A DNA stretch of 64,000 nucleotides from Ceratodon purpureus (Eukaryota > Streptophyta > Bryopsida > Pseudoditrichales > Ditrichaceae), in NCBI GenBank assembly GCA_014871385.1, contig CM026426.1, forward strand, positions 90,130,893-90,194,892, in the 5' to 3' direction. The notes beneath the pieces were generated by a model. That model did no database searches and was not told the origin of the DNA. It saw only the letters and a list, made by a program, of their open reading frames with translations. Positions 2,691 through 62,040 of the stretch are shown in pieces (the first letter of the stretch is position 1; every line of letters starts with the position of its first letter). A program made the position numbers and the translations under genes.

Positions 2691-3152
2691 GGTTGACACT
2701 AAAGTTCAAGGGCTAGGGGTACTGTCCATACCACGACGATTCTTCTGTTTCTGAGCATCTACTGGCTGGATTAGCGACTTGAGTATAGCGTCGTATATGT
2801 CGCTGAATTCTTCAATGCCAAAAAAGTGGCGCCCTGAAGCTCGGCTCACCAAAAGAGATGCCCCTGTAGAGGAACTGAGATCGACTATTATGTCTCCTGG
2901 GTTTGAGCACCTGTCAATCAGAATTTGAAAGAAAGTATAGGACTTCTCATGGGGACCACGCCATGGATTCCCGCGTTTGTCCATGGACGGTTTTTCCACA
3001 TAGTTGGTGAATGTAAGGTACCTCATCGGATCATCTGCGGTATTGGCCAGCAACGGATCAGCATTCAACTTAAATGGAATTGGCAATCTCTCCCACTGCT
3101 TGTCCTTGAGTTGTCCCGTTTTGACTAAGAGGACCGCCGAGAAATTGAATGT

Positions 3153-4651
3153 CTGAAACCAACAACATGTCCACCGTCAGTTTACAACATTTCCACCGTC
3201 ACCATCCTATTCAATCATGAGCAATGGCTTAAAACATGGTCAGAAACACTTCAACTGTCACATTTAAACTTGATAGAAGAGGCAATACGTGACTTAAGCC
3301 AAGCTTCACACCGCTTGAACGAACCAAAATGTCACACATGTTATGCCTGATCCGATTGTTAATTCAAATGCTCCACACAATTTCAAAGGCTCCAGAAGTT
3401 AAAATGCTTGCAAGAGTGGCACTGCCTCTATAGATGCAATTCAAATCCAGCCCAGACTTGTAGAGTGACGATTTAGGTATGCAGACTCGAACTCAATATA
3501 ACCAATGCTGACAAGCCACCTACACTGAGATTACATTCCGGCCCACTCTTGTGCAACAATTCACATCAAGATCCCATCAGAAACAAAGCCTCTTTCCATC
3601 TTATACCACAGCCTCGACATGAACAGGATGATCTAGTGAGGTTTATAATGATCCCAATGCATCACCTCTTCACTTGGTAAACACAAACCCCCAAGCAGAG
3701 ACGTCACTTCTCTCCAACAAATGCATGGTATAAGAAAACAGAAGACCAGGAAGCTTATTAAAAAAAAAACGATATGGAACTGAAGAAGATTCCTGGCCAG
3801 CAGGAGGTCGTACGCTAAACTAGAACTCGCTCGAAGACAATAAAGAAAGCTAACTGTACACGAAATTGGTGGAAATACAACTGAAGAGGCGAGCTACAGA
3901 GGTGCCTGTTAGAGCATTGATCCAAGACCAAAATAAAATTAAAGAGAAATCTCGCTCAGCCAATCAACGCTCCGTCACAACTCAAATAATTACACAAAAA
4001 AACAAAACGCTATCAACTGAACTCATTAACAGACCGCGCTCTATGGACCAGCATTAGAGACTGAAGTAACGAAACACAATAAAACCCTATGTAACGGAAA
4101 AGAACGCATGATCGCTCCAAACCAGCAGCAGATTATTGCTTATTCAGGGCTTGTTGAAATTCATCATTGGAGACATGAAAAGAAATAACTCGCTCTGGAG
4201 CTACCTTCATCTACCTAATGCCATCTGTTACTCCCTCGAAACAAAACATTAGTAGTTGAAATTACCGGGGACAGAGATGACTTAGATAGAAAATGTAAGG
4301 GTGAGCAACGAAACGGGCGTTCTGTATAGAACAGCCTCTCAACGGTCAGGCCATGCGACCCTCCCATACAACAAAATAGGCGTTCTGTACAGAACAGCCT
4401 CTGGACAGTCCCCATGCGACCCTCCCATACATCAATGAGCTCTGACAAGAGCATGATATGCGAGGAGTAGCGTAAACTTTCGGCCACTCACAAGCCGTCT
4501 TGGCCATACAAAGTCTGATTCGGTACCACAGCAATCCATTAAAGTTAAAGACTAAAATAAATTTGGACCATGTCATTACCAAAGTGGTCTGCAAGCACAT
4601 GAAACACATGCACATAAGATGGATTCCATGCAAGGTAGGAGTCTGACATAC
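3153..4651 (-). other. Large intron of the methyltransferase-like gene
   Basis: Starts with GTATGTC and ends with TTGGTTTCAG (minus strand). No internal gene is convincing. It holds the duplicated palindromic unit at 4315-4431. Confidence 0.55.
4315..4431. repeat. Tandem duplication of a ~55-bp palindromic unit
   Basis: Two copies (4315-4370 and 4378-4431) share GCGTTCTGTA(T/C)AGAACAG, a near-perfect palindrome, followed by CATGCGACCCTCCCATACA. Related imperfect palindromes of the form GTTCGG-CA-(G/T)AAC occur at about 6572-6590, 7720-7738 and 7783-7800, all within this gene region. Confidence 0.7.
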
Positions 4652-16341: not shown

Positions 16342-16675
16342 TGTTGGAAATATGTAAAGAAACGATGAATTGAGAAGAAAGAGACAGACTCACAAGATCA
16401 TGCAGACATAGCGCTTCACTACAAGAGTAATATGTTTATTGCTTAAACATTGGCAGTACAAGAGATGATTTCAATAACGCATCATGTCAAGTTTAAGTAG
16501 CTGAGGGATCTTGATCAGTTCGGTAATATAACAACCTAATCATCAGCTACTAATCATCAGCTACTAATCATCAGCTACGTAACTAACTTGATTCTGCACC
16601 GAAATACTCAGATAGTATTTTCTATTTCATATATATGCATACATGGTATGCCGCCATGTCACCGTAATTTCAACA
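16342..16675 (-). repeat. 3' LTR of the defective Copia element
   Basis: 334 bp; on the plus strand TGTTGGAAAT...TTTCAACA. Contains three copies of a 14-bp CTACTAATCATCAG-type microrepeat. On the minus strand it is preceded by the purine-rich CTCAGGGAGGG, the polypurine tract. Confidence 0.9.
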
Positions 16676-16734: not shown

Positions 16735-19290
16735 TTAAGCTGTAGCAGCTGTGGGTATCGGTAGCAAACCAATATAGGTTCGGAGCAAGGAAAAGTGATC
16801 AAAAGGCAATGCTTTCGTAAAGAGATCAGCAAGCTGTTTGAGCGTTGGAATGTACTGAATATCAATAGCACCCGTGCATTGATGCTCCCGAATGAAATGA
16901 AACACAATATTGATATGCTTAGTACGACGGTGGAACTCAGGATTATGCACCAATCTGATGGCACTTTGATTGTCGGAGAAGAGTCGTGTGGCCTGTGACT
17001 GTTCAAAGCGAAGGTTTGAGAGCAAACGGCGATGCCAGATAATATCTTTCGTGGTAGAACCAGCAGGGATATACTCTGCCTCGGTTGTTGAGGTGGCCAC
17101 GCACTGTTGTTTCCGGCTGCACCATGCCACAGGAGCACCGCTAAGTAGGAGAATGGTGCTGGTGCGAGACTTGCGATCGGTGATGTCGCCTGCATAGTCT
17201 GCATCTCCATATCCTTCGAGCAGAAGAGGTCCGTCATGTTGGCCGAAACAAAGCCCGAGGTTCAAAGTACCTGCAAGATAGCGAAAGATCCTCATAACTG
17301 CATGATAATGCGAGTGCTGTGGATTCGCTGTGAACTGAGCCACCATGCTCACAGCATAACTTATGTCAGGTCGACTGAGTGTTTGGGCAAAGAGTAGGCA
17401 TCCCACAGCAGCTGAATAGAGAAATGGAGGCTGAAACGGCTCACTGGTGTCGTCAAGTTTGACATTTGGGTCGGCAGGGGTGCTTAAAGGAGTGCAGTCA
17501 GCAAGTCCAAAGCGTGTCAAAATGCGGCGAAGGTAGATTGCTTGGTGGATAAAAATCCGTCCTTCGGTTGGCAAACAGAAGATGTGCAAGCCAACGTACA
17601 AATCTGCAGATGAACGAGTAATAGCAAAATGGTCCTCTATATATTGAATAAGCTGCTGTAATCGTGTGGGTGAAGAACAGCATGCAAGGCCATCGTCCAC
17701 AAAGAGTGTGACAATGAGGCGTGGCTCATCCTTGGAAATGTAAACACATGGATCCGCCTCGGTAGGAGCAAGATCAAATTTCGCAAGAAACTCATCAACG
17801 ACTGGTTCCAGATACGACCAGATTGCTTAAGGCCATATAAAGTTTTCTGAAGAAGACAAACAAGGGGAGAATCACTCTGGCTTGGTACCTCAAATCCTTA
17901 GGGTTGTAACATATAGATAACGGTATCAAGAATGCCATGGAGAAAAGCTGCCTGGATATCGAACTGGACAATGTCCATGTGCTGCTGAGCGGCAATGGCA
18001 AGCACTGGTATGGATTCATACTTCACAACCAGACTAAAAGTCTGGTCATAGTCTATGCCGTGTTGCTGGGTGTAACCTTTTGCAACAAGGCGTGCCTTGA
18101 ACTTTGCCAGAGATCCGTCAGAGTGTGTTTTCACGCGGTAAACCCATTTGCACTTGACTGGTTTACGATCACATGGCAGAGGCACAAGACGCCAAGTCTT
18201 ATTTTTGAGTAAAGAGTCATACTCGGCTTTCATTGCTGCACGCCATTCGGAGGAGTGCTGGCTAGCAATCGCATCGGCGTACGTATCAGGGTCGTCAGGA
18301 ATATGAGTGCTGGCAACCAGGCCTGCAAAAGCATGGCACGATGTAATCCCGTAAGTGGGTGGGCGCGCTGCGAACGCACGTGGGTCGAGGTGAGTGAGCT
18401 CGAGGTACAGGTGAGATGCATGAGGCAATATTGGCTGATTCCAAAGTGCCGTTGCAATCAAGCATGGTATCCAGCGGCACATCCAGATCATCTTGCATAA
18501 TTTCAGGCATAGTGACTAGTGGCTGAGTGGAGATCGAGGCGTGCTGTGGAGGCAACGGGAAGTCACCAGCTGTAGTAGACGTTGCAGGACCAAAAACGAC
18601 ATCATGGAAAGTGAATAATCCTGAAAAGACTTCCGGCGTTGTTTGACCAGGAACAGAAAATTCGTCAAAAATAACATCACGGCTCACAATAATTCTTTGG
18701 CGCTTAGAATCCCAAAGTCGATAAGCCTTGGTGTCGCTACAGTAGCTAACAAAAATAGTTTTGAAGCTCTTCGGATCCAGCTTGTGCCTGTTCATCTTCG
18801 GGATGTGAGCATATGCAACGCATCCAAAGATGCGTAAATGGGAGACTGAAGGGACGTCGCCTGTCCAAAGCTCATAGGGAGTTTTGTGTGATCGTGTTCG
18901 AGATGCCGTGCGGTTTAGCAGATAGGCGGCTGCTTGGGTTGCTTCTCCCCAGAGGTTGAGTTGGAGCTGCTTAGCATGGAGCATAGTGCGTACACATTCA
19001 ACCAATGTGCGGTTGTCTCGCTCTGCGCTCCCAATTTGCTCAGGAATATATGGAGCTGTTAGCTCGTGGCGAATAAATGAGTCAGTGAGAAACATTCTAA
19101 ACTCTTTGCCTAAAAACTCGCCGTCTCTGTCACTTCGAATCTGCTGAATGTGATTTCCGGTTTGCTGAGGTATAAGCTTGCAAAGTGTTTTGAAACGGTC
19201 CAAAACGTCTGATTTTTGTCTGATGCAGTAGACAAACCGGTAGCCAGAGAAGTCGTCTTTAAATAAAACGAAGTAGCGTGCTTTGTAGTG
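16735..19290 (-). pseudogene. Copia pol remnant (integrase core, RT, RNase H)
   Basis: Frames on the minus strand in pol order. From 19290 to about 18500: integrase core (YFVLFKDDFSGY, then RSDRDGEF and later GYCS-type C-terminal sequence). From 18491 to 17898: reverse transcriptase start (KWVYRVK, ARLVAKGYTQ, DIQAAFLHG) ending in a stop after YMLQP. From about 17720 to 16735: RT with FVDD at about 17700 and RNase H (GDADYAGD, STTEAEY, DNQSAIRL, RTKHI). Frame breaks at about 18300 and 17900-17700 and the lost 5' portion make it inactive. Confidence 0.85.
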
Positions 19291-19300
19291 AAAAAAAAAA

Positions 19301-19515
19301 TGATTAGTAGCTGATGATTAGGTTGTTATATTACCGAACTGATCAAGATCCCTCAGCTACTTAAACTTGACATGATGCGTTATTGAAATCATCTCTTGTA
19401 CTGCCAATGTTTAAGCAATAAACATATTACTCTTGTAGTGAAGCGATGTGTCTGCATGATCTTGTGAGTCTGTCTCTTTCTTCTCAATTCATCGTTTCTT
19501 TACATATTTCCAACA
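19301..19515 (+). repeat. Inverted partial LTR copy
   Basis: 215 bp matching the U5-side two thirds of the LTR but in the opposite orientation to the other two copies, ending TTTCCAACA at 19515. A run of ten A (19291-19300) marks the junction with pol. Confidence 0.9.
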
Positions 19516-19650: not shown

Positions 19651-19941
19651 TGAGAAGAAAGAGACAGACTCACAAGATCATGCAGACACAGCGCTTCACT
19701 ACAAGAGTAATATGTTTATTGCTTAAACATTGGCAGTACAAGAGATGATTTCAATAATGCATCATGTCAAGTTTAAGTAGCTGAGGGATCTTGATCAGTT
19801 CATTAATATAACAACCTAATCATCAGCTACTAATCATCAGCTACGTAACTAACTTGATTCTGCACCGAAATACTCAGATAGTATTTTCTATTTCATATAT
19901 ATGCATACATGGTATGCCGCCATGTCACCGTAATTTCAACA
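19651..19941 (-). repeat. Truncated 5' LTR of the defective Copia element
   Basis: About 291 bp in the same orientation as 16342-16675 but lacking the terminal ~28 bp on the left. Only two copies of the CTACTAATCATCAG microrepeat. The right end ...TTTCAACA abuts the TGCAT duplication. Confidence 0.85.
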
Positions 19942-23738: not shown

Positions 23739-23889
23739 ATGGAGTGTCATCACGAAATAATTGCGGAGTTGTTTGCGTGCGAACTGTGTCCGATTGAACC
23801 CATGCGAAAGAGGAAGAGAGGTGATCGAAAGCGCTGGAAACGTTCTGTGGTGCCTCGGTGTTTGTCTGGTGCGGAATTAGAGCAAAAAC

Positions 23890-24106
23890 TGTTGAGACAT
23901 TTTCTGTTACCCTTTTCCATCCACAACATTTCATCCTTGTAGATACTGTACAACTACTGGTTACCCAGATTACCGTGTCTTAATTAGACTACCGCAGCTT
24001 AGTATATATTGATCCCTCTCAAGCTGTGTAATCATCGACTTAGTTTTTTCTTCTCTCATTTGGGAGCTAATTTGACATGCTGCATCCGCAGCTCTTTATT
24101 GCAACA
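23890..24106 (+). repeat. 5' LTR of intact Copia element
   Basis: 217 bp, TGTTGAGACA...TTGCAACA, with a TATATATTG sequence (about 24003) as possible promoter. I found no difference from the 3' copy on reading. Confidence 0.97.
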
Positions 24107-24118
24107 TGGTATCAGAGC
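24107..24118 (+). promoter_or_regulatory. Primer-binding site (tRNA-iMet 3' end)
   Basis: TGGTATCAGAGC immediately after the LTR, complementary to the 3' end of plant initiator tRNA-Met. Confidence 0.95.
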
Positions 24119-24214
24119 ATCTGCTCATTAGCTAGATCCTCACTTTTCTGAATACTTTCATCTTTCCTCCCTTTCCTCTCTTATCCTCACTCAACCCTAT
24201 CCTATCTCCACAGT

Positions 24215-27200
24215 ATGGAATCCTCTCTATCAGGTAGAGAGATCCCTGAGAGCACTAAACTCCAAGGCTCATCTAACTATGCCATCTGGGCATACAAGAT
24301 GAAGACTTTGCTTCAGGGAGAGAGACTTTGGCAAGTCGTCTCACCTGAGACTCTATCTAGCTCTCCTGCTTCGTCTTCCACGCACACTGCATCATCACAG
24401 ATCTCCGGCGAGGCAGACTCCGGTGGCGCAGCCGAAGCAAACACTCCTGCGCCGACCAATGCTCCTGCTCCAACCGTTCCTGCCTCAGCCACATCACAAC
24501 CAGCTGTCAACCTCCAGGATCAGAAATTCAAGGCAACCCGCATCATCGTACCTACGGTAAAAGACTCTATCCTACCCCACGTCATGAACATGACGGACCC
24601 TAGACGCATTTGGATAAAATTGAGAGATCTGTATGAATCTAGCAGTATGAATAGACGTCTTAGTCTTAAATCTCAACTTTACAGTTTGAAAATGACTGAG
24701 AAGACTAGCCTAGACTCTCATCTAGCCACTATTAGCACTCTGGTAGGGCAACTTGCAAACATAGGCGTCCTAATCCCAGACGAAGAACTAGTAGACAGAG
24801 TGCTTACCAGTCTTCCACCAAGCTGGGGAATATTCCGCCAGATGATCTCCGGCAGAGAACGCGCTCCCTCCTTCGAGGAGCTTGAAGGATTACTCCTGCA
24901 GGAAGATGGCATCAGATCCAGAGATAGGGAGCACGAGGACAGAGAACAAGCCCTATCTCTACAGCACGACATATTGTTTTCTGGACAGTATGGTGGAAAC
25001 TACAATCGTCGAAATTTCAACTCCAAGTCAAGGGGAAGAAGCTTTACCTCATACCGAGGAGCAAATTCCCCTACTGGTACACGCAGCAACTTTTCAGGCC
25101 CGCGAGGTACCCAAGTTTCTCGACCTCCATATCGCTCCGGCCCTTCTCGAGACTCCACAGATCCTGCTACCTATTGCCATGTCTGTGGAAGCCCGTTCCA
25201 TTGGGCAGATAAGTGTGAAGTCCGCCTACTGAGGGAAAAGGTTCGCGAGCTGGAACTCAGCTCCACCTCTGGCGCAGCTCGCTGGCGTGCTCCTCACTCC
25301 GCAAACCTGTCTGAGCAGCAACAATCAGATAATCAGAAGTCAAACGAAGACATTGCGCTAGCAGAGGTATTCGAAGTCTGTGCTGCAGAGGTGAAGAACC
25401 GTAGTAGTCCCCAAAGCTGGTATTTAGATAGCGGGGCTACAGCCCATGTCACAGGCAATTTGGACTTACTTTCAAACATAGAGAAAGCTCCAAATTCTAG
25501 TGTCACTACAGCAGGTGGAAATTCCCTTCCAATTTCTGGAAAAGGAAGTGCTACGGTTGAGAACAATAAAGCGATTGACAATGTTTATTACGTACCTGGT
25601 ATGGTAAAGAACCTCTTGTCCGTAGGAAAATTTGCAGATTCAGGTTACTACACCTTGTTTGGACCTCGTAACTGCTGGATATTTTCTGCCTCAAATCCCA
25701 GAAAAATCCTCTACACAGGAAGCAGACAAGAACGGAACAGCCTGTACCGATTAGATACTTCTCTCACAGGAAATCGTCAAGTCAATCTACCTCAGCAATC
25801 TGTAAATTTAGCCAGCTCAAGAGATTCGGATGCAAAGCTCTGGCATAAAAGAACGGCTCACCTCAACTTCCAGTCACTCTACAGACTCTCGACTGGAGAA
25901 ATGGCTACTGGAATCCCTCGCCTACCTCTCCTCCGACCCGACTGCGAATCCTGCATCTTCGGTAAACATCACAGGCATCCAATTCCCAAGGTTAGCTTAA
26001 CCCCCACAACTCGACCGCTTCAGTTAATTCACTCAGACTTGTGCGGTCCTCTACCTGCGTCACTATCTGGTTCTCGTTATATCCTAACGTTCATAGATGA
26101 CTATACCAGATACTCTTGGGTTTATTTCTTAAACCTCAAGAGTGAAACTTTTACAACCTTCAAAGACTTCAGACACATGGTAGAAAAGGAGACAGGACAC
26201 AAGCTATCTTGCCTCCGTTCTGACCGCGGAGGAGAATACCAATCATTAGAATTCATTCACTACTGTAGACAGGCTGGAATCAGGAGACACCTAACTGCTG
26301 CCAGGACCCCGCATCAGAATGGTATATCGGAACGCAAAAACAGGTACCTATGTGAGACTATGCGAACCTTACTGTTCAGCTCTAAACTACCGACTCACCT
26401 TTGGGAGGAAGCTGTTCGAACCGCCAATTACATCAGCAATAGAGTTCCTCACAGGGCTTTACACAAAACCACTCCGATTGAGCTGTACACTGGACAGGTA
26501 CCAAATCTCTCAAACCTTCGTGTTTTCGGATGCACAGCCTTTGTCCATCTGCAAAACACAAAGAAGTTAGAACCCAAGGCAACCAGAACTATTCTAGTTG
26601 GTTATGACTCTCAGTCCAAAGCCTATCGTTGCTACGATTATATTTCCAGAAAGATCATAATCTCTAGAGATGTTCAGTTCTTAGAAACGGAAGTAGGCAT
26701 TCCAAATCAACGGGACTTACCTTCACCCGATGATGACTTACTCAGATCCTTCCTTGATTTAAACTCCCTTCCTCCTACACAAACCCCTGCTCCAGACTCT
26801 AGTTCAACACAGCTCTCACCATCCCAGCCGCCTGTCTTCCCAAGCTGTCCCATAACCACAGAAGAAACCTTAGAACCCGAATCAGATTCTCAAGAGGCAA
26901 TAGACACTATCCCCATAACTCAAGTGCCGTTACCTGTACAACCACGGAGATCAACCAGATTCCGAAAACAGAGTGTTAAACTAGACGACTACATACTCAC
27001 CATCACTCCTGATGACTTCGACATTACAATGTCGGAAAACATACAACCTGTACCCTCAGAAAATTTAAGCCTAGAACAAGCTCTATCAAGCCCACACTGG
27101 ACCGAGGCTATGAGGGATGAATTAAAATCCATAGACAAAAATCAAACGTGGAAATTAGTTCACTTACCTAAGGGTAAGAAAACCATTAGTGCTAGGTGGA

Positions 27201-28663
27201 TTTTTAAGACTAAACCTGGACTCAATGGACAGCCCCCAAGACACAAGGCTCGACTGGTTGCACGGGGGTATGAACAAAAGTATGGGATAGATTTCGAAGA
27301 GGTGTTTGCCCCAGTAGTTAAGTGGTCTACAATACGCTCCCTCGCAGCCACAGCTGCAAGACATGGCCACGAGATTCATCATCTGGATGTTAAAACAGCA
27401 TTCTTGTATGGAAATTTAAATGAGGAGGTATACATGGAGCAACCACCAGGTTTCGAGAAAACAGGACAAGAGAATCTAGTATGCAAACTGGAAAAATCAC
27501 TCTATGGACTAAAACAAAGCCCTAGAATGTGGTATGAACGGATAGACACATACCTGAGGTCAATTGGATTAACCCGAAGCCACAGCGATTATAACCTCTA
27601 CTACATTGGAACAGGGGACCATAGAACCATTCTGGTAGTCTACGTCGACGACCTATTTCTCACAGGTCCTGACACAGAACAAATCACTTGGCTTAAACGA
27701 AAACTCAAGGATGAGTTTGATATTACCGACCTAGGGCTCATATCCAAGTACCTTGGCATAGAGTTCAAGACATCCAATCATGGCATTTTCTTAACTCAAC
27801 ACGAATACGCAAAGGACATGCTACAGGAATTCAACATGCAAGATTCCAAAACTGAACATGTACCTCTCCCAGCAGGACTACTCCTCTCATCAGACATGAA
27901 ATCGAAACCTGTCGATGTACATGATTATTGCCGTAGAGTAGGAAAACTCATCTTCCTAACTACGACTCGCCCAGATCTCTCCTTCTCCGTTAGTTCAGTA
28001 TCCAGATACATGGCAGCACCACAGCTCGCACATCTCGAAGCTGTCAACCACATACTACGGTATGTTCACAAAACCTTGGACTATGGACTCCTGTACAAAA
28101 GAAACGAGCACACACAGGTACATGGTTATACGGATGCAGATTGGGCATCCTGCCCCGAGACTCGCAGATCAACAGGAGGCTACTGTTTCATAATGTCAGG
28201 AGCTGCTATAACATGGCAATCGAAAAGACAACAAACTATTGCAAAATCCTCTACCGAGTCTGAGTACATGAGTCTCTCTGCAGCAACAGCTGAAGCCACC
28301 TGGATTAGAAGGCTACTTACCGAAACAGGTACGCTACCATCCACCGAAACTCCTCCTCTCCTCCTGACGTCAGATAGCGATACCATACAGGCAGATTTAA
28401 AACCCTATACACTCACTATACATTGTGACAACCAATCGGCCATAAAATTAGCGAAGAATCCAGTTTTCCACGCAAGAACAAAACACATAGAGGTGCATCA
28501 CCATTTTGTCCGAGAGAAAGTAGAATTAGGTCAAATAAAACTTGATTATGTGTCCACAGACTTACAGCCAGCAGATATTTTCACAAAGAACCTTGGCAGG
28601 ACAAAGTTCGAGCTCCATAGGTCTAACCTCGGACTCACCAGCTATGCCACAATCTCAAACTAA
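24215..28663 (+). CDS. Copia gag-pol polyprotein
   Basis: Single 1482-aa frame, no breaks. Order: Gag (start KLQGSSNYAIWAYKMKTLL, about residues 13-33); CCHC zinc knuckle CHVCGSPFHWADKC (about 321-334); aspartic protease DSGATAHVTG (about 405); integrase with LWHKRTAH and CESC (about 543-580) and catalytic D (about 608), D (DRGGEY, about 670) and E (SERKNR, about 705), then an ARWIFKTK-type RT start; reverse transcriptase with YVDD (about 1143-1146); RNase H with TDADWA, STESEYMSL, CDNQSAIKLAKNP and RTKHIEVHHHF (about 1300-1430). The product assembles particles, copies element RNA to DNA and integrates it. The start Met is 97 bp after the primer site. All catalytic signatures that I checked are present, so it is probably functional. 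Confidence 0.97.
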   Translation: MESSLSGREIPESTKLQGSSNYAIWAYKMKTLLQGERLWQVVSPETLSSSPASSSTHTASSQISGEADSGGAAEANTPAPTNAPAPTVPASATSQPAVNLQDQKFKATRIIVPTVKDSILPHVMNMTDPRRIWIKLRDLYESSSMNRRLSLKSQLYSLKMTEKTSLDSHLATISTLVGQLANIGVLIPDEELVDRVLTSLPPSWGIFRQMISGRERAPSFEELEGLLLQEDGIRSRDREHEDREQALSLQHDILFSGQYGGNYNRRNFNSKSRGRSFTSYRGANSPTGTRSNFSGPRGTQVSRPPYRSGPSRDSTDPATYCHVCGSPFHWADKCEVRLLREKVRELELSSTSGAARWRAPHSANLSEQQQSDNQKSNEDIALAEVFEVCAAEVKNRSSPQSWYLDSGATAHVTGNLDLLSNIEKAPNSSVTTAGGNSLPISGKGSATVENNKAIDNVYYVPGMVKNLLSVGKFADSGYYTLFGPRNCWIFSASNPRKILYTGSRQERNSLYRLDTSLTGNRQVNLPQQSVNLASSRDSDAKLWHKRTAHLNFQSLYRLSTGEMATGIPRLPLLRPDCESCIFGKHHRHPIPKVSLTPTTRPLQLIHSDLCGPLPASLSGSRYILTFIDDYTRYSWVYFLNLKSETFTTFKDFRHMVEKETGHKLSCLRSDRGGEYQSLEFIHYCRQAGIRRHLTAARTPHQNGISERKNRYLCETMRTLLFSSKLPTHLWEEAVRTANYISNRVPHRALHKTTPIELYTGQVPNLSNLRVFGCTAFVHLQNTKKLEPKATRTILVGYDSQSKAYRCYDYISRKIIISRDVQFLETEVGIPNQRDLPSPDDDLLRSFLDLNSLPPTQTPAPDSSSTQLSPSQPPVFPSCPITTEETLEPESDSQEAIDTIPITQVPLPVQPRRSTRFRKQSVKLDDYILTITPDDFDITMSENIQPVPSENLSLEQALSSPHWTEAMRDELKSIDKNQTWKLVHLPKGKKTISARWIFKTKPGLNGQPPRHKARLVARGYEQKYGIDFEEVFAPVVKWSTIRSLAATAARHGHEIHHLDVKTAFLYGNLNEEVYMEQPPGFEKTGQENLVCKLEKSLYGLKQSPRMWYERIDTYLRSIGLTRSHSDYNLYYIGTGDHRTILVVYVDDLFLTGPDTEQITWLKRKLKDEFDITDLGLISKYLGIEFKTSNHGIFLTQHEYAKDMLQEFNMQDSKTEHVPLPAGLLLSSDMKSKPVDVHDYCRRVGKLIFLTTTRPDLSFSVSSVSRYMAAPQLAHLEAVNHILRYVHKTLDYGLLYKRNEHTQVHGYTDADWASCPETRRSTGGYCFIMSGAAITWQSKRQQTIAKSSTESEYMSLSAATAEATWIRRLLTETGTLPSTETPPLLLTSDSDTIQADLKPYTLTIHCDNQSAIKLAKNPVFHARTKHIEVHHHFVREKVELGQIKLDYVSTDLQPADIFTKNLGRTKFELHRSNLGLTSYATISN

Positions 28664-28706
28664 CAGCTCCCAAACCCCTGCTGCCTAGACACACAATTTC
28701 CCACAA

Positions 28707-29430
28707 CTACTCCTCCATAAACTTCATAGCGTCACTATAGGTCTGAAAGCCCTTAAATTCTGCTCCAGAAAAATGCTTTACTTTATCCTCGCACTCCCTC
28801 CAAGTCGTGTAAATCCCTGGTCGAGTGCCTTTCCTCACAGCATAGAATTTCTTGCCTCGATGACCTACTGCCTTCGCGTTAATTTCTGCTAGAGTCATAG
28901 GAGGTGCATCAAACCAGAAATCATCGCAGTGTTCACAGATGGGCTTTCCTCCTCCGATCCTTCCGATGATAGGCCCTCCATCTTCTTTAATTCCTACCAC
29001 TGAAATTAGAAACCCCAATTAGTTTAAAACCCTAATCAGTACTCCAATTATCCTCCACAGTTCTTATTCCCTACCGTATCCTCTCAGCCATAACTCACAA
29101 ACAGAACCGCAGCCCATAGTTTCCCGAGTCACACTCAAACAACCCGAAACTTAGGAAACCCTAGTACTTACCCCCAATTGCAGGCTGCTCGACACTCGCA
29201 ACGACGTCACGACCACGGCGCGCCACCGCAGCATCGACGACGTTGAACAGAGTTACAAATATTTGCTTCAACAACAAGGTGATCGCTCTCAGGCAATCCC
29301 ATGCTGCTTCGCGCTACACACAACTCCAACGAGTCCGATCAATCAGCTCCAAACAATTAGCAATGGAGAAAATCACGCAGATTACACAATCGAATATCAT
29401 CTCACTTACCACAGTGAGACGATCGTCCAT
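28707..29430 (-). CDS. Antisense spliced gene: RNase H1-N / viroplasmin-type hybrid-binding protein
   Basis: Lies inside the intact Copia element, opposite to gag-pol, between pol and the 3' LTR. Exons 29430-29410 (ATG, donor GTG|GTAAGT), 29313-29172 (acceptor TTGTGTGTAG, donor GGGG|GTAAGT) and 28999-28707 (acceptor TTTCTAATTTCAG, stop TAG side at 28707). Lengths 21+142+293 = 456 nt, one open frame of 151 aa across both junctions. Residues 10-35 are hydrophobic/helical (ITLLLKQIFVTLFNVV). Residues 65-80 hold a Gly-rich stretch and CEHC. The C-terminal ~45 residues carry KKFYAVRKGTRPGIYTTW, then EC, V, FSGAEFKGF and a final FMEE: the RNase H1 N-terminal/Cauli_VI domain (FYAVxxGxxPGIYxxWxECxxxVxxFxGAxxKxF), which binds RNA:DNA hybrids. 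No RNase H catalytic domain follows. Domain call is firm; expression and role are inference. Confidence 0.8.
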
Positions 29431-29532
29431 TCCGCGTCAACAACAGCAGCGCCTCTACTTCAACACGGAGACAGCTACCTCGTAAAACCCGCACTTAGAA
29501 AAATGTAATTAGGGATTCGAGCTTCTGAGCTC

Positions 29533-29541
29533 GAGGGGGGG
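29533..29541 (+). other. Polypurine tract
   Basis: GAGGGGGGG immediately before the 3' LTR; primes plus-strand DNA synthesis. Confidence 0.9.
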
Positions 29542-29758
29542 TGTTGAGACATTTTCTGTTACCCTTTTCCATCCACAACATTTCATCCTTGTAGATACTG
29601 TACAACTACTGGTTACCCAGATTACCGTGTCTTAATTAGACTACCGCAGCTTAGTATATATTGATCCCTCTCAAGCTGTGTAATCATCGACTTAGTTTTT
29701 TCTTCTCTCATTTGGGAGCTAATTTGACATGCTGCATCCGCAGCTCTTTATTGCAACA
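29542..29758 (+). repeat. 3' LTR of intact Copia element
   Basis: 217 bp, reads identical to the 5' copy; followed by the AAAAC duplication. Confidence 0.97.
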
Positions 29759-30160
29759 AAAACTTGACGACCTGCTCCTTGAAGTAACGAAGTATCACAA
29801 GAGTCTGCAGTGGTTCAGCTCAGTTGTTCTCTACTTGGCTCCTCCGATCCATAGCACGTAAGTCCCCAATTATCTCCAATGTGCACTAGGTTACCCCACG
29901 ACGATGTCCTGATACTGCGTTTTCCTACGATGCTCCGATCGGTGAGTTATTGAATATGATTTTTTCACCTGCGCACAAACCCAGATTCCCTAGGAGATTG
30001 GTAGGATCACTCTCAGGCGTCTGTTCATAGAAGCTGGGATGCATGGTGCAGCTACCTCAGACACTCTAAACGAGTCCGTGACGCACGTAATTACATATCA
30101 CAAAGACCAGAAGGAGATCCTGCGTCGAGATTGGGTTATCCGAAGGTGAGTTCAGAACTT

Positions 30161-46471: not shown

Positions 46472-49400
46472 CTACTCTGCTACTTTTTTTTTCCCTTTAT
46501 TTTTTTTTGCTCTTCGTAAATTAGACTGAATAGTTCCAACTGCCGGTCTTTGTAATGACCTCCTCCTCTCCGTCACCTCAAAACTTTGTAAGGCAATTGC
46601 ATTCTCAGTGTCGTTGAGAACAATTGCACCGGCGAGATCTGGCTCTGTTGGAGGATTCGTGAATGTGCTGCTCGGTACAGCACCAGCCGACTGATCATTA
46701 GTAGTGATGAAAACATCATCATCCTCTTCAACTTTCCTCCTAGATCTAGCCTCTTTTCGTAATACCACTTTCCACTCTGTTCCAGAGGGGTGCAGATCAT
46801 CATCAGAGAAGAACACTTGTGTACACTGAATAGGGAAGACATAAGGATCAACAGATCTCGGTGTGTTGTGTCTAAAGTTTACTGTGAGAAAACCATCTCC
46901 ATCCTGAACATATGTACTGTTTCCGAAATTGTCTGTCCGTTTCTTCCATGTGCAGGAGAAAATGACAATCGGAGTTTTGATATCACCATAGTCTATAAGA
47001 AGAATATCTTGAAGAATCCCAACGTAGTCCAATCCAGTGCCAGCGGATTGATCGTTTGCCTCCAGACACGCCACCCCGCAGTCATACGTATTAGCAGACC
47101 TCCCTACCTCGTCATCCACTCTCCAATGATTTCCGTACGCCTTCATTTTTGCATAGCGTTTGCAGGTCATGAATGGTGGATTTGATAGTAAAACAGTGTC
47201 AGCTTCGTCTGCATCATTCATGTCCAATTCTTGCGAGTGTAGGGTACGTTGCACCCATGAATCAACGGGTCCAATTTCACCTGCAGTGGATTCCCAAAGT
47301 TCTTCCCATTGCCTGTAACATTCATAGATTTGATGTAAGAACCATGGAACAGTTCTAGAATTAATTACAAGCATAGGAATCTCAGATGATGAATCAAAAG
47401 AAATGTACTTCCTAAATGAACAGTACTAAAAAATATAAAAAGGGCACTCTAAACTGGATTTCGGGTTATCATTCCATATATATCGATCTCCAAAAAAAAA
47501 AATTTGTGTAGGTACCGTTCCGTAATGAAAAAGAAAAAAAAAAAAAAAAAAAGGATAATAAAAAACAAAACCAAATCGAAAACTGACTGATTAATTAATT
47601 ATTATCAAAATATTTGAAGTTTTTATATTCTCGTGAACGTGAAGTTAGCTAAACTAGAAATGATATAAATTAAATAAAATAAAACAGGTGATCAATAATA
47701 AAGAAATATAAGTTTACTGGAAAAATTTGGTAGTCGAATAGAAAAGAGGCAGTAAATATATATATGAAGGAAAATAAAATTTAAAAACGAAGAAACTATT
47801 ATTAGGAAATCAATGAATACCAGAACCATTGAAACAACAAATATCTAGGATTAGTAAGGCTAAGACTATTCAGTCCCTAGTTAAAAAAAGGTACTGTATA
47901 ACCTGAAAAAACAGAAACTTCACTACAATTTACTGTAATAGTATTTTACCTGTCATGATTATATAACTGCAGTTATTTAATGTGTTCAGATAAAATGCTC
48001 ACCCTATTGAAAGAATTTTATACGGTCGTGACACAAAGTGTTCAATCCTAAACCCCGTACAATTTAGATAAAAAAATATGATTTCTGTTCTCATTTAAGT
48101 GCAGCCGACCTCTGTCTCATAATATTAAGTGAGGAAGAGCTCAGAGAAATTAATTTACGTTCTGATCTGCTCAAAGTCATCTATTTCCAAATGGTCACAA
48201 AAATTAAAGGCAGACTGTTTTAAAGATATGTGATGAAGAACATGCAAGAATAGAAAAAATGTGTACGTACCTGTAGTACTAAGCAGTGAGTGTGTTATTT
48301 CTCAAAACAAATTTGTGGATAGCATCCCTTTGTGATCTAGTAAGAACTAAATCGGTATGACCTCCCTCTAGCTCCTTAAATTCGGCACAGTCTTCTGGAT
48401 CGGCATCCCATACACGTCGTCTAACCACGTCAAATCCATGCATGTATGATGTAGCGAATCCCATAGTCTCTTCCAATAAATACCCATGTGCAATAGAGGC
48501 CTCCGGCCGGGCACGATTTTTCACATGATTTTTAAGAGTCATCATCGTCCTTTCAATTGGGTACATCCATCGCACCTGTGTGGGTCCCAAAATGAATAAC
48601 TCTTCTACCAAATGGAATGGAAGATGTGACATTATGTCAAAAAAAGTAGGTGGAAACGTCATTTCCATAAGGCACATTGTGATGGCCACGTCTTCTCGCA
48701 AGTTTTCTTCATACGCAGGATCCCAGACTTTGCAACAGAGTCGCCTGAACAGACGAGATGCTCTCATAATAGCCAATCTGGTATTTGGTTCCATTAGCCC
48801 CCTCAAAGCCAACGGTAATAATGATTGCATAAGTATATGATAGTCGTGTGATTTTAGAGCACCAAATTTTTTTTGACGGATATGTTGACCGATCTCTGAG
48901 CAATACCCGGATGGAACTTTTAACTTCTCTAATCGGGTACAAAATATATCAAACTCCGCGGCTGTTAGAACGTAATTGGCTTTCGGCTTTAACATCCTGG
49001 AAGGGTTTCTAGGATCTCTTGTCATCCATAAATGGGGTCGAATTCCCTCTCTCTGCATATCTCTCCTCACTCTCACACTATCCTTTTCCTTCCATCCACA
49101 TATAGTTTTCAGAATATTCTCTGCAAAATTTTTCTCACAATGCATAATGTCCAGTGTATTACGAATCTCTAAGTGCTGCACATGAAACACAAACATTAAT
49201 TAGTTATCCAACATGACAAGACTATTGTGACTGCATTCTTATACTTAATTTATACATAACTTTGGAGCCATGAAGTTTAAAACAGAATGCCAAAAAAAAT
49301 AAAAGTGCAAGGGGCCACTCACCTCCCAGTAAGGCAACTCAAAAAATATGCTCTCCCTTTTAATACCATATATTTTGGAAGGGTCAGGTGTGAGTTGTCT

Positions 49401-51409
49401 TCGTTCCCGTGTATGGATTGATTCACTATGTTGAGCTTCACCAACTTGTGAATGCGATAAACTTGGATGGTTACGTATTTGATGGGAACTTCGTACTCCA
49501 CCTGCTACAGTTGATGTCCTTCTTTTTTTATTTAAAGGCTCTCTGCTTGCGGACCCTGCATCCTTCCTAGTCCTTTTCTTCCTCAGAAATTCCGTATATT
49601 CTGCTAGAGCCGCACGTTGCTGAGCTAGTGTTTTTGGAATGGGAGCATCTCTTGTTTCGGGTAATCCGTCGAAAAACTTGTTGTATTCGTCTGATCGTAT
49701 GTAATGATCCCTTCTTACCCACCGTCTGGCATCTCTGTATGACATTTTTTTACTCTCAGACATATATTTTCCTCTAAGTTGGTCACCGCACGGTGGGCAC
49801 GCCGTATATTCAAGCTATGAGCAGCGCCAGAAACAGTTCCATAACCTGGGAAGTCGTGAGTTGTATACAAAACCGCTGCTCGTAGCTTGAATATACGCTC
49901 TCTTTCGGGCTTTAACAAGTCGTATGCAGGAACTCCATCCCATAAAACCTTAAGCTCATCGATTAATGGTCTTATCCAAACATCAAAAAATTCAAAAGGA
50001 ACTTGTGATTTTCCAGGAATGATTAAAGCCAGCATGGTAAAAACATTTTTGGTTATTAACCATGGAGGTAGGTTTAGGAAGGTTGTTATTACTGGCCATG
50101 CTGACCATGTGGACTTGTGGAGCTTGAAAGGACATATACCATCACATGAAATATGAATTCGCACGTCTCGTTCATCCCTCCCGAATCCTTGGGTGTCAAA
50201 AATTTGTGGGTCCATATTACCAAATTTTTTCCAGGCCCGCGAATCAGCTGGGTATCTGACCTTCCCATCTCTGCTTGGATTTTCCTTGTGCCATCGCATT
50301 AATTTTGAAAGTACTGGAATTCGATAAAAACGCTGCTACCTAGGCGTGATATGGAATTGGCGAAGTACTTTTAGGGGCCTTGTTCGGTTGAACATGTCTT
50401 TAAACCTTGCAGCTTGACAATGTGGGCAACGGTCTAAATCTTTAGTATTTGCACCGTCAAATAGTGTGCACCCATTTATGCAACCATCTATGTTTTTGAA
50501 ATTAAGTCCCAAACGCTTTGTCAATGTTTTGGCTTGATACAATGATCCTGGTAAGCAATTATCGGGTGGTAAAAGATTTTTCATCGTGGCGAATATGTCA
50601 TCTGCTGCTTTCTCTGTAATTCCCGAATGTGTGGCAACTAAATTTACCATCATTATGGTTGCACCAAGTTTTGTATGTCTTGAACCATTGAATAGTAATT
50701 TCATTGCATCCTCTAGTGCACGAGCATCTTTAATCCTCTCTTCTTCAAGTTCAGTACTGTCCATGTTTATCCTGAGATTGTCATATAAATTTCCATCATT
50801 TTCTTGGGACCCAGATGGTGGTCCTTCTGCATTGGGGGATAAATGGTCATGATGGTGGCGTTGAAAATCAGAATCATGTGTCCCATACTCACTTGGTGCG
50901 AAATTAGGTATATCTTCAGTTTCATTCTGAATACCTGTATTACTAGGTCCACTTTCGTCTTGGTAATTATTTAGCCCAGTTATATTGTCTGAGTCTTCTA
51001 AAGCAGACATTGTAATTTCGTTAATCTTATCCTCTGTCTCGGCAGCTTCCTGTACCTGTTGGTACATGTCTTGTACCATACTACGTATCTGTACTCCAGA
51101 GTCACGTTCCTGGTCATGTTTAGTAGCTGCGGCAACTTTTGCAGCAGCATCAGCTTCCCATTCATCGTCCGACGAATCGTTTTCTTGAGGTCCTCTAGAT
51201 GTTCTACAATCAGATGATCTTCCCCATCGAAGTAAATGCTTCTCGATTTCCTCCAATTTATAAGGCAAACCAACACCTCTATGACGTTAACAAGGACAAC
51301 AAAGTCTTGTTAATCCATAAAGAGCTGCTCGTTCTTTGTCACGAACCCACAATTTATTGTCACGTTCTCTAATTCTTCTCAAATCTGTAAGAGGTAATCT
51401 GTTCGCCAT
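46472..51409 (-). pseudogene. CACTA TNP2 transposase, inner element
   Basis: Exon 1 from ATG at 51409 to donor LPYWE|GTGAGT (49323). N-terminal Cys/His segment (LTRLCCPC, stop, RHRGVGLPYKLEEIEKHLLRWGR); acidic middle; KVLRQFHITPR then MRWHKENPSR; DGICPFKLHKSTWSAWPV, NLPPWL, IRPLIDELKVLWDGV, TTHDFPGYGTVSG; shift near 49812; ACPPCGDQLRGKY, ARRWVRRDHYIR. Exon 2 from 49175: LEIRNTLDIMHCEKN, then the DUF4218 part (GALKSHDYHILMQSLLP, YPIERTMMTLKNHVKNRARPE) to TAG at 48279. Last exon to 46472: YDCGVACLEANDQ, DYVGILQDILLIDYG, CTWKKR, FRHN, VFPIQCTQVFFSDD, WKVVLRKEARS (DUF4216). In-frame stops at 51287-51289, 50336-50338 and 48279-48281 plus one shift; otherwise well preserved. TNP2 is the DDE-type enzyme that cuts CACTA ends. 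Confidence 0.9.
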
Positions 51410-59399: not shown

Positions 59400-60485
59400 G
59401 TCTTCTCTGAATTATGCTACACTTTAGTGTAGCAGCAGAGTCATGGTGTTGTTCTGATTCTGCTTCACCGTTTGTAGTACTTCTTTTGCCTGTAGAAACC
59501 CCTGCTTAATTTATAGGCTGAGCGTGTGATTGCCCATGAACTTCTATGATGAATATCACGTAGAAGCCTTTTTTATTTTTCCGTTTCTGGACGTCTCCGC
59601 CTCAAGTATTTATTTCTTTTTTCTTCATTTTTTTCTTTGTTTTAAACGTCTAACAGGCAGTGAACCTGATTCGCCATGTTACGTTATCTACAGTACGCTG
59701 CCGCGGTCGCTTTTGTATTCAGTAGAAGGTGATTCGGGCATGGATTTGTAGTCTTCGTGATCAAAGTCTGCAACTTCGTTTAGCCTGGTTAAATCTGTTA
59801 GTCCACTAGCAGGATTGGTATGTTTAATCTTCTATCTCCACATCAACAGAGTTGGTATGCATAGCAGTAGAGACATGGTCTTGTTCTAATTCTGCACCGT
59901 GCGTTTGCAGTACTTCTTTCGCCTCAAATAACCCCCCCCCCTTCAATTATGGGCAGCGTGTTTAATTTCTAGTGGACCTTTTTGATGAATTGCACGCAGA
60001 AGCCCTTCATTTCTTTTTTTTCCCCATGGCTCCGACTTATTTATTCATTTCTTTTTTACTTCGTATTTTTTTTTTTTGGAAACTTCTAACTCGGAGTGAA
60101 CCTGGTTCATCTTCTTTATTCATTTCTTTTTATCTTTTTTTTTTTTTTTTTTTAAAACTCCTGACTCAAAGTAAACCTGGTTCATCTTCTTTGTTCATTT
60201 ATTTTTATTTTTTATTTTTTATTTTTACACTCCTATCTTGGAGTGAACCTGTGTTATCTTATTCATTCCGTTCTTTTTTTCTTTGTATTTTTTTTTTAAA
60301 AACTTCTAAGTCGGAGTGAACCTAGTTCATCTTACTTATTCATTTATTTATTTTTTAATTTGTATATTTCTTTTACCCTAAACTTCTAACTCAGAGCGAA
60401 CCTGGTTCATCTTGTTTATTCATTTATTTTTTTCTTCGATTTTTTTTTTAAAAACTTCTAACTTGGAGGGAACCTAGTTCATCTA
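59400..60485. repeat. Minisatellite in outer TNP2 intron
   Basis: Six or seven degenerate copies of a ~72-bp unit, each with poly-T, then AACTTCTAACTCGGAGTGAA, CCTGGTTCATCTT and TTATTCATTT (clearest from 60061 to 60480). They are preceded by two longer related units (about 59415-59640 and 59855-60050) sharing a GTTTG(C/T)AGTACTTCTTT(C/T)GCCT block. Confidence 0.85.
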
Positions 60486-60879: not shown

Positions 60880-62040
60880 CAAGATCTCCCGGTCAGGAAT
60901 TTAGTAGACGTTATGCATGTCGGAAAAAACGTGGCCCTCAAAACCACGTGACATAGTCAAGATATGCCTAGAAAGTCGGGATCACATGGTACGCTAACTC
61001 TGACTTTAAAAAGGAATGCCATGAAACGGAGCTAAATTTAAGCCCGAGTGGAACTACAAAGCTTGGTCGCTGCCCATGCGCTACACTATCGTAGACCCCG
61101 CTTGGTAATTATATTACTAATTGTCAGGATTCCGTTTAAATTAATTCTTTCACTCTCATGTACTAATCACGCGTTGGTTATTGTTGGCAAACGGTATCAC
61201 CTCCTCGTCGAGGAGCGCAGGCAGGCCCGAGCACGCTGGCGTCGCAGGCAGCATGGGCGTACTATCTTTCCACCCGACTTGGCGGAGCTACCGCCATTCA
61301 GTCATTGGCTTCGGTCTACAGTCGCCGAGGAGAAGGCCGTAGGTGTGGATGTCGACCAGACATTGGACGCTATTTCTAAATTTCCTTCGCGGTTTGCAAC
61401 TGCGTTCCAATCCATTTACACATACGATTACCACTACCGCGTACGCAGCACTGAAAGTCACTTAAAAAACAGTGATTCTGGGCTTACTGCCACCTTTGTG
61501 CGTGAATGTCGTCACGGTTTGCGCGATCAGAACCTAGTCCTGGCACCTGTCAAATAAGTCGGAAACCTGGAAGAAATCATTGAATTAACCTACTCACACG
61601 TTCGCCAAGTGGTTTTCATTGGCACTTGGGTGCGTGCTAACTACAGAGGCAGCTCCGCTACACTGAAGAAGGACAAATTTGGTTTCACAATCGCGAATTT
61701 TGCCCGTTGCCTCCCTTTCGGCCGCAATTCATTCGAGTTCCCATCACAATGCGAGCAGGTCTTTTTTGGACCATGCGCGGAAGCCCCTGGGTGGAAAGTT
61801 GTTGTGCGCACCGAACCTCGTAGCTGCCGGGTGGTCGCTGATAACTCTGACGTCGACAATGGCTTCCTCTTTCGGCAGGGCCGTGATAATGACTTCCGAG
61901 GACTGCAGGTCCCGGACCAAATCAACGAAGAGACGATTACCTCAGTGAATACCGGCAGGGTCGACAGGGTCGCAAACTTTGCAGAAGAGGAACCGGATGC
62001 AGCCAATGACACCTTTGACAACGATCTTGGCGCATCCTGA
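60880..62040 (+). pseudogene. CACTA TNP2 transposase, outer element, C-terminal part (DUF4216)
   Basis: Starts with RNLVDVMHVGKNVALKTT at about 60900, the beginning of the exon that follows LPYW in TNP2. A KFKPEWNYKAWSLPMRY piece follows, but most of the DUF4218 region is absent. Frames 61048-61557 and 61558-62040 are in phase, separated by one TAA (61555-61557). They encode an Arg-rich segment, FATAFQSIYTYDYHYRVRS, SDSGLTATFVRE, NLEEIIELTYSH, VVFIGTWVRANYRG, KKDKFGFTIANFARCLPFG, FPSQCEQVFFG and PGWKVVVRTEPRS, the DUF4216 domain. Stop at 62038-62040. Collinear with 33566-35390 once 35729-59341 is removed. Confidence 0.8.

Follow-up and report, generated by a model that had tools for sequence, protein, structure and literature searches.

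We analyzed a 64,000-nucleotide stretch of the genome of the moss Ceratodon purpureus (contig CM026426.1, positions 90,130,893 to 90,194,892; hereafter the window, numbered from its first letter), in which a complete Copia retrotransposon of 5.9 kb (23890-29758) carries a predicted antisense gene for a protein ending in an RNase H1-type hybrid-binding domain. The element is bounded by two long terminal repeats (LTRs) of 217 bp that are 100% identical (5' LTR, TGTTGA...GCAACA, 23890-24106; 3' LTR, 29542-29758; both on the plus strand), and the same five bases, AAAAC, lie on either side of it as a target-site duplication (23885-23889 and 29759-29763). The 5' LTR adjoins a primer-binding site, TGGTATCAGAGC (24107-24118, plus strand), which we take to be of the initiator tRNA-Met type, and a polypurine tract, GAGGGGGGG (29533-29541, plus strand), is located immediately 5' of the 3' LTR. 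Paired LTRs, target duplication, primer-binding site and polypurine tract are the structural hallmarks of Ty1/copia elements. Between the LTRs, gag-pol forms a single open frame on the plus strand (24152-28663 from stop to stop; 24215-28663 from the first ATG, as counted on the translation). Pfam recognized in this one frame Retrotran_gag_2 (residues 108-259), rve (620-720) and RVT_2 (997-1239), that is, gag followed by integrase ahead of reverse transcriptase, the Copia domain order. A search with gag-pol residues 1-480 gave at least 35 matches among 7983 scored candidates, the best listed being 50% identical and the longest contigs for the top three measuring 4811, 5028 and 235243 bases, and Rfam gave no match in the window at the gathering threshold. 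An initial annotation of this DNA had described a host element with identical LTRs and an intact polyprotein, in good agreement with these data, and the identity of the LTRs suggests a young insertion.

The antisense gene occupies an 878-bp module that extends from the pol stop to the 3' LTR (28664-29541, minus strand), as delimited by the reading frames and the LTR borders. Exon 1 (29410-29430) encodes the peptide MDDRLTV, exon 2 (29172-29313) an N-terminal stretch for which a helix was predicted in the homologue P0003, and exon 3 (28707-28999) a linker, a Cys-x-x-Cys motif, the hybrid-binding domain and the stop codon. They are separated by intron 1 (29314-29409, 96 nucleotides, GTAAGT...TAG) and intron 2 (29000-29171, 172 nucleotides, GTAAGT...CAG), whose splice sites are predicted. 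As the initial annotation had proposed, the three exons joined at these GTAAGT donors and TAG/CAG acceptors into one antisense frame of 151 codons plus a stop (152), with no internal stop. The hexamer GTAAGT occurred exactly twice on the antisense strand of the module, at the two donors, and not once on its sense strand; across the whole window it was found 35 times (12 on the plus and 23 on the minus strand). Because GTAAGT is confined to the antisense strand of the module, the sense genomic RNA should keep both introns. The earlier argument that antisense introns outlast retrotransposition is sound, and the module may, as proposed there, have been captured as genomic DNA. Its antisense frame also has the position, after pol and ahead of the 3' LTR, that defines the plant antisense additional open reading frames known as aORF-3R. 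On the sense strand of the module, a 117-residue frame (29155-29508) had no Pfam match above the cut-off and was rejected as a gene, its relatives not having been searched for.

The C-terminal domain (28710-28853, minus strand) was assigned by Pfam, PDB and fold comparisons. Exon 3 matched PF01693 with an E value of 1.6e-19 and 70.3 bits, against a curated cut-off of 21, and its sequence matches in the PDB (chains 1qhk, 3bsu and 6vrd) were the hybrid-binding domains of yeast and human RNase H1. The modelled exon 3 domain superimposed on the human one at 0.8 Å over 48/48 residues, so the predicted structure has the fold of an RNase H1 hybrid-binding domain, and in the structural register the human binding residues W43 and K59 correspond to W121 and K137 of the moss protein and K60 to a glycine. 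Fold matches to caulimovirus viroplasmins were obtained as well, and in a second PDB comparison the clear fold matches were confined to the hybrid-binding domain. The RNase H1-N/viroplasmin-type assignment made earlier for the C terminus thus stands. A catalytic RNase H domain was found by Pfam neither in the exon 3 frame, where PF01693 was the only match, nor in 8/8 scanned relatives, including three annotated moss proteins, and the reading of the protein as a catalytic RNase H was rejected on this basis. Upstream of the domain, the Cys-x-x-Cys motif (CEHC, 28926-28937, minus strand) has both cysteine columns invariant in 8/8 aligned rows, the window included. A second Cys pair is present further upstream in P0003, P0004, P0015 and P0016 and absent from P0001, P0017 and P0018. 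The N-terminal stretch and the Cys-x-x-Cys motif, which the initial annotation did not mention, are common to the window protein and its annotated moss relatives.

Those relatives were recovered by a protein search over 5.8 billion proteins, in which 14 of 51 candidates matched with an E value of 0.001 or lower. The best, Ceratodon purpureus KC19_VG018000 (P0001), covers 92% of the query at 73% identity. It starts with the seven residues MDDRITA, which correspond to exon 1; in tblastn, its residues 8-47 aligned to 29313-29194, a match whose first base is also that of exon 2, and residues 61-147 to 29006-28746, starting seven bases ahead of exon 3. The linker in this alignment shows an eight-residue gap relative to the window. 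Two further Ceratodon proteins, M758_UG231100 (47% identity) and M758_10G054000 (48%), span the whole query, and all three have in common the N-terminal stretch, the Cys-x-x-Cys motif and the C-terminal domain, which is truncated in P0001. Since three annotated moss proteins align across the joined exons, the joined frame stands above chance, and together with the domain score they rule out a fortuitous antisense frame. The locus tags of these relatives point to U, V and chromosome 10 and come from two annotation sets (KC19 and M758). Another match, P0002 (97 residues, on a 3239-bp contig), is identical to the exon 3 translation begun at its GTG, and may be this locus or a second copy. The phylogeny of the domain (28 rows, 27 of them hand-picked relatives, 48 columns) was mostly without resolution, with a star on 4/25 inner branches; the eight moss-type rows required 2 changes on the tree, compared to 7.0 in shuffles, and formed one clade in 1% of bootstrap trees. 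Among other matches, P0024, P0025 and P0029 are short metagenomic proteins with the hybrid-binding domain at their C terminus. The first two start with a hydrophobic stretch, and P0024 was listed for 22 contigs, as might be expected of a repeated element.

Grande, RIRE2, Retand and PvRetro13 are reported to carry antisense genes between pol and the 3' LTR (PMC7264820; PMC11963269), and in plant LTR retrotransposons such genes are described as relatively frequent and of unknown function (PMC7264820). Grande gene23, for instance, is reported to have its own promoter and a nuclear product (PMC7264820). The moss gene shares their position and orientation in the element. However, the domains given for them in the available text of these sources are TRP28, SMC and some others related to DNA, or no known domain at all, with no mention of the RNase H1 hybrid-binding domain, and that text describes for none of them a three-exon structure like the present one (PMC7264820; PMC11963269). 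Moreover, Retand is a Gypsy element (PMC11963269), whereas the element studied here is a Copia. The HBZ gene of human T-cell leukemia virus type 1 (HTLV-1) and related retroviral antisense genes are likewise antisense and spliced, and are reported to be expressed from the 3' LTR (PMC10186651), while here the likeness lies in sequence sites, and HBZ is a bZIP regulator with a different domain. Eukaryotic and bacterial RNase H1 share the hybrid-binding domain with the moss protein, but no catalytic domain was found in the latter, and its hybrid-binding domain is C-terminal, following the N-terminal stretch and the Cys motif. The additional RNase H (aRH) of Tat-lineage Gypsy elements is another RNase H-related module acquired by LTR retrotransposons, as a second one (PMC6317226). 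According to the same source it sits among the polyprotein domains, in contrast to the binding-only, antisense-encoded domain described here. Similarly, capE of Pleurotus Helitrons is a captured PF01693 gene in a mobile element (PMC4289320), although its host is a fungal DNA transposon and not a retroelement. The combination of Copia, antisense orientation, introns and a hybrid-binding domain was not found among the matches listed from the open-licence PubMed Central literature. Thus, antisense accessory genes of plant LTR retrotransposons are known as such, and what appears to be new is a Copia one that is predicted to be spliced and to encode a hybrid-binding domain.

The ligand of this domain, the RNA:DNA hybrid, is formed in each round of retrotransposition. 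The protein is predicted to bind hybrids and is without a cutting domain, and because of this it could protect the hybrid intermediate. We therefore favor, tentatively and as somewhat short of an even chance, the hypothesis that it coats the hybrids of RNA and complementary DNA (cDNA) and acts as their shield against host RNase H1. In such a scheme, an antisense transcript, perhaps started in the 3' LTR, would be spliced; the 3' LTR has a TATATA site (29655-29660) that can be read on both strands and represents a candidate antisense promoter. The N-terminal helix would multimerize the protein, or tether it to Gag or to a membrane, by which a weak single hybrid-binding domain would gain grip. 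The protein would then occupy the RNA:cDNA duplex of reverse transcription and delay host RNase H1 or, alternatively, keep hybrids, the polypurine primer for example, in place until the second strand is made. As the introns run opposite to the genomic RNA, a replication cycle would leave them unspliced.

Two lines of published work lend plausibility to these steps. In yeast lacking Rnh1 and Rad27, raised levels of Ty1 RNA-cDNA hybrids are reported to boost Ty1 mobility, which is also boosted, in another way, in yeast lacking Rnh1 and Rnh201 (PMC7524711). Host RNase H1 can thus act to brake an element of the Copia superfamily, if not alone. The human hybrid-binding domain is reported to give a diffuse stain as a single copy and to label foci as three copies in tandem, and forms with W43A or KK59/60AA to stain diffusely again (PMC10639055). 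An oligomerizing N-terminal helix would supply the moss protein with the grip required.

Several points weigh against a shield. The antisense gene is known here from the sequence of one element. From the outer edge of the 3' LTR to the antisense start codon there are eight ATGs, of which four follow the TATATA site, so an LTR-started mRNA would be poorly translated. In the domain itself, the position of human K60 is occupied by a glycine, and the annotation of P0001 stops short of the domain end. The long N-terminal helix was modelled in the homologue P0003 (whole-model predicted template modelling score, 0.37) and not in the spliced protein of the window. As for the analogies, the yeast effect is reported to require a second loss, of Rad27 or Rnh201, beside that of Rnh1 (PMC7524711), suggesting that a block of RNase H1 alone may be insufficient. 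Furthermore, in human cells the caulimovirus protein TAV is reported to lower the hybrid signal obtained with S9.6 (PMC7102451), an effect that may be one of epitope masking, and antisense RNA can by itself impede retrotransposition (PMC12786077). In its fullest form, in which a moss Copia lineage would keep a spliced antisense accessory gene as a standing component and its product would act as an oligomeric anti-RNase-H1 shield of RNA:cDNA intermediates, the hypothesis is one that we consider rather doubtful.

A host gene or gene fragment might instead have been caught by this one element as a passenger with no role in retrotransposition, its moss relatives being ordinary host genes. This is in agreement with the outcome of our contig scans. 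Four scans of viral_contigs, a collection distinct from plant genomes, with P0001, P0126, gag-pol and alignment A2 gave 6, 2, 1 and 70 pattern matches, respectively, with 0 confirmed relatives, and a scan of genome_contigs gave 15 pattern matches and 1 confirmed locus, of 17 residues in a bacterial genome. Nevertheless, the frame is intact across its three exons and the LTRs of its element are identical. The annotated relatives, with their U, V and chromosome-10 locus tags, are diverged in a way common among mobile genes, which is suggestive only. Overall, a passenger is possible, if somewhat unlikely.

The protein might also act as a helper in trans, supplying the RNase H of the Copia element with the substrate-gripping domain that this enzyme lacks and thereby speeding RNA removal and primer choice. 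In cellular RNase H1, the same domain is paired with a catalytic domain and aids the enzyme, and among the 120 relatives listed, many combine PF01693 with an RNase H domain (PF00075 or PF13456). The reported decrease of hybrid signal caused by TAV (PMC7102451) is likewise what a helper would predict. However, the antisense frame stands as a gene of its own, and a catalytic domain was found neither in exon 3 nor in the 8/8 relatives scanned. This makes a helper, in our view, unlikely.

Less probable still, the antisense RNA and not the protein would act, by pairing with the genomic RNA and so limiting copy number or triggering silencing. Ty1 antisense RNA is reported to counter retrotransposition, and in plants antisense transcripts may be a source for silencing by small RNAs (PMC7264820; PMC12786077), but this leaves both the intact spliced frame of 151 codons and the relatives at the protein level unexplained, and we regard it as very unlikely. 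We deem highly improbable a P6-like action on the host, through translation, inclusion bodies or suppression of silencing, since the likeness to caulimovirus P6/TAV, which comprises the shared PF01693 and the fold matches to viroplasmins, is judged on a domain of approximately 48 residues alone, whereas P6/TAV is a virus gene product of 520 residues (PMC7102451).

If the protein does shield RNA:cDNA hybrids, host RNase H1 would be a defense to which retroelements have found an answer, and the gene would be, as far as the literature searched goes, the first antisense gene of a retrotransposon whose biochemical task can be read. Since the ligand of the domain is at the same time the central intermediate in reverse transcription, the function of antisense retrotransposon genes becomes directly testable. 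Such genes could escape notice, since one survey of moss transposon transcripts is reported to have dropped antisense assemblies as not representing genuine element transcription (PMC7466625).

The window harbors further mobile elements and repeats. A second, broken Copia element lies on the minus strand at 16735-19317, with matches to RVT_2 and to integrase and SH3 in separate frames. It is flanked by short tandem arrays of CTAATCATCAGCTA (16536-16583 and 19816-19844) that may lie in its LTRs. At 46472-51286, also on the minus strand, consecutive frames matched Transposase_21 (E 6.8e-42), DUF4218 and DUF4216, an arrangement presumably like that of CACTA-type DNA transposons. A weak DUF4216 match, under the curated cut-off, was found on the plus strand at 61558-62040, the same domain being present in the element at 46-51 kb. 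On the minus strand at 2706-3176, a frame in this plant genome matched the DNA methylase domain N6_N4_Mtase (E 5.8e-5, under the curated cut-off). Finally, a tandem array with a period of approximately 75 and six diverged copies occupies positions 60036-60484.
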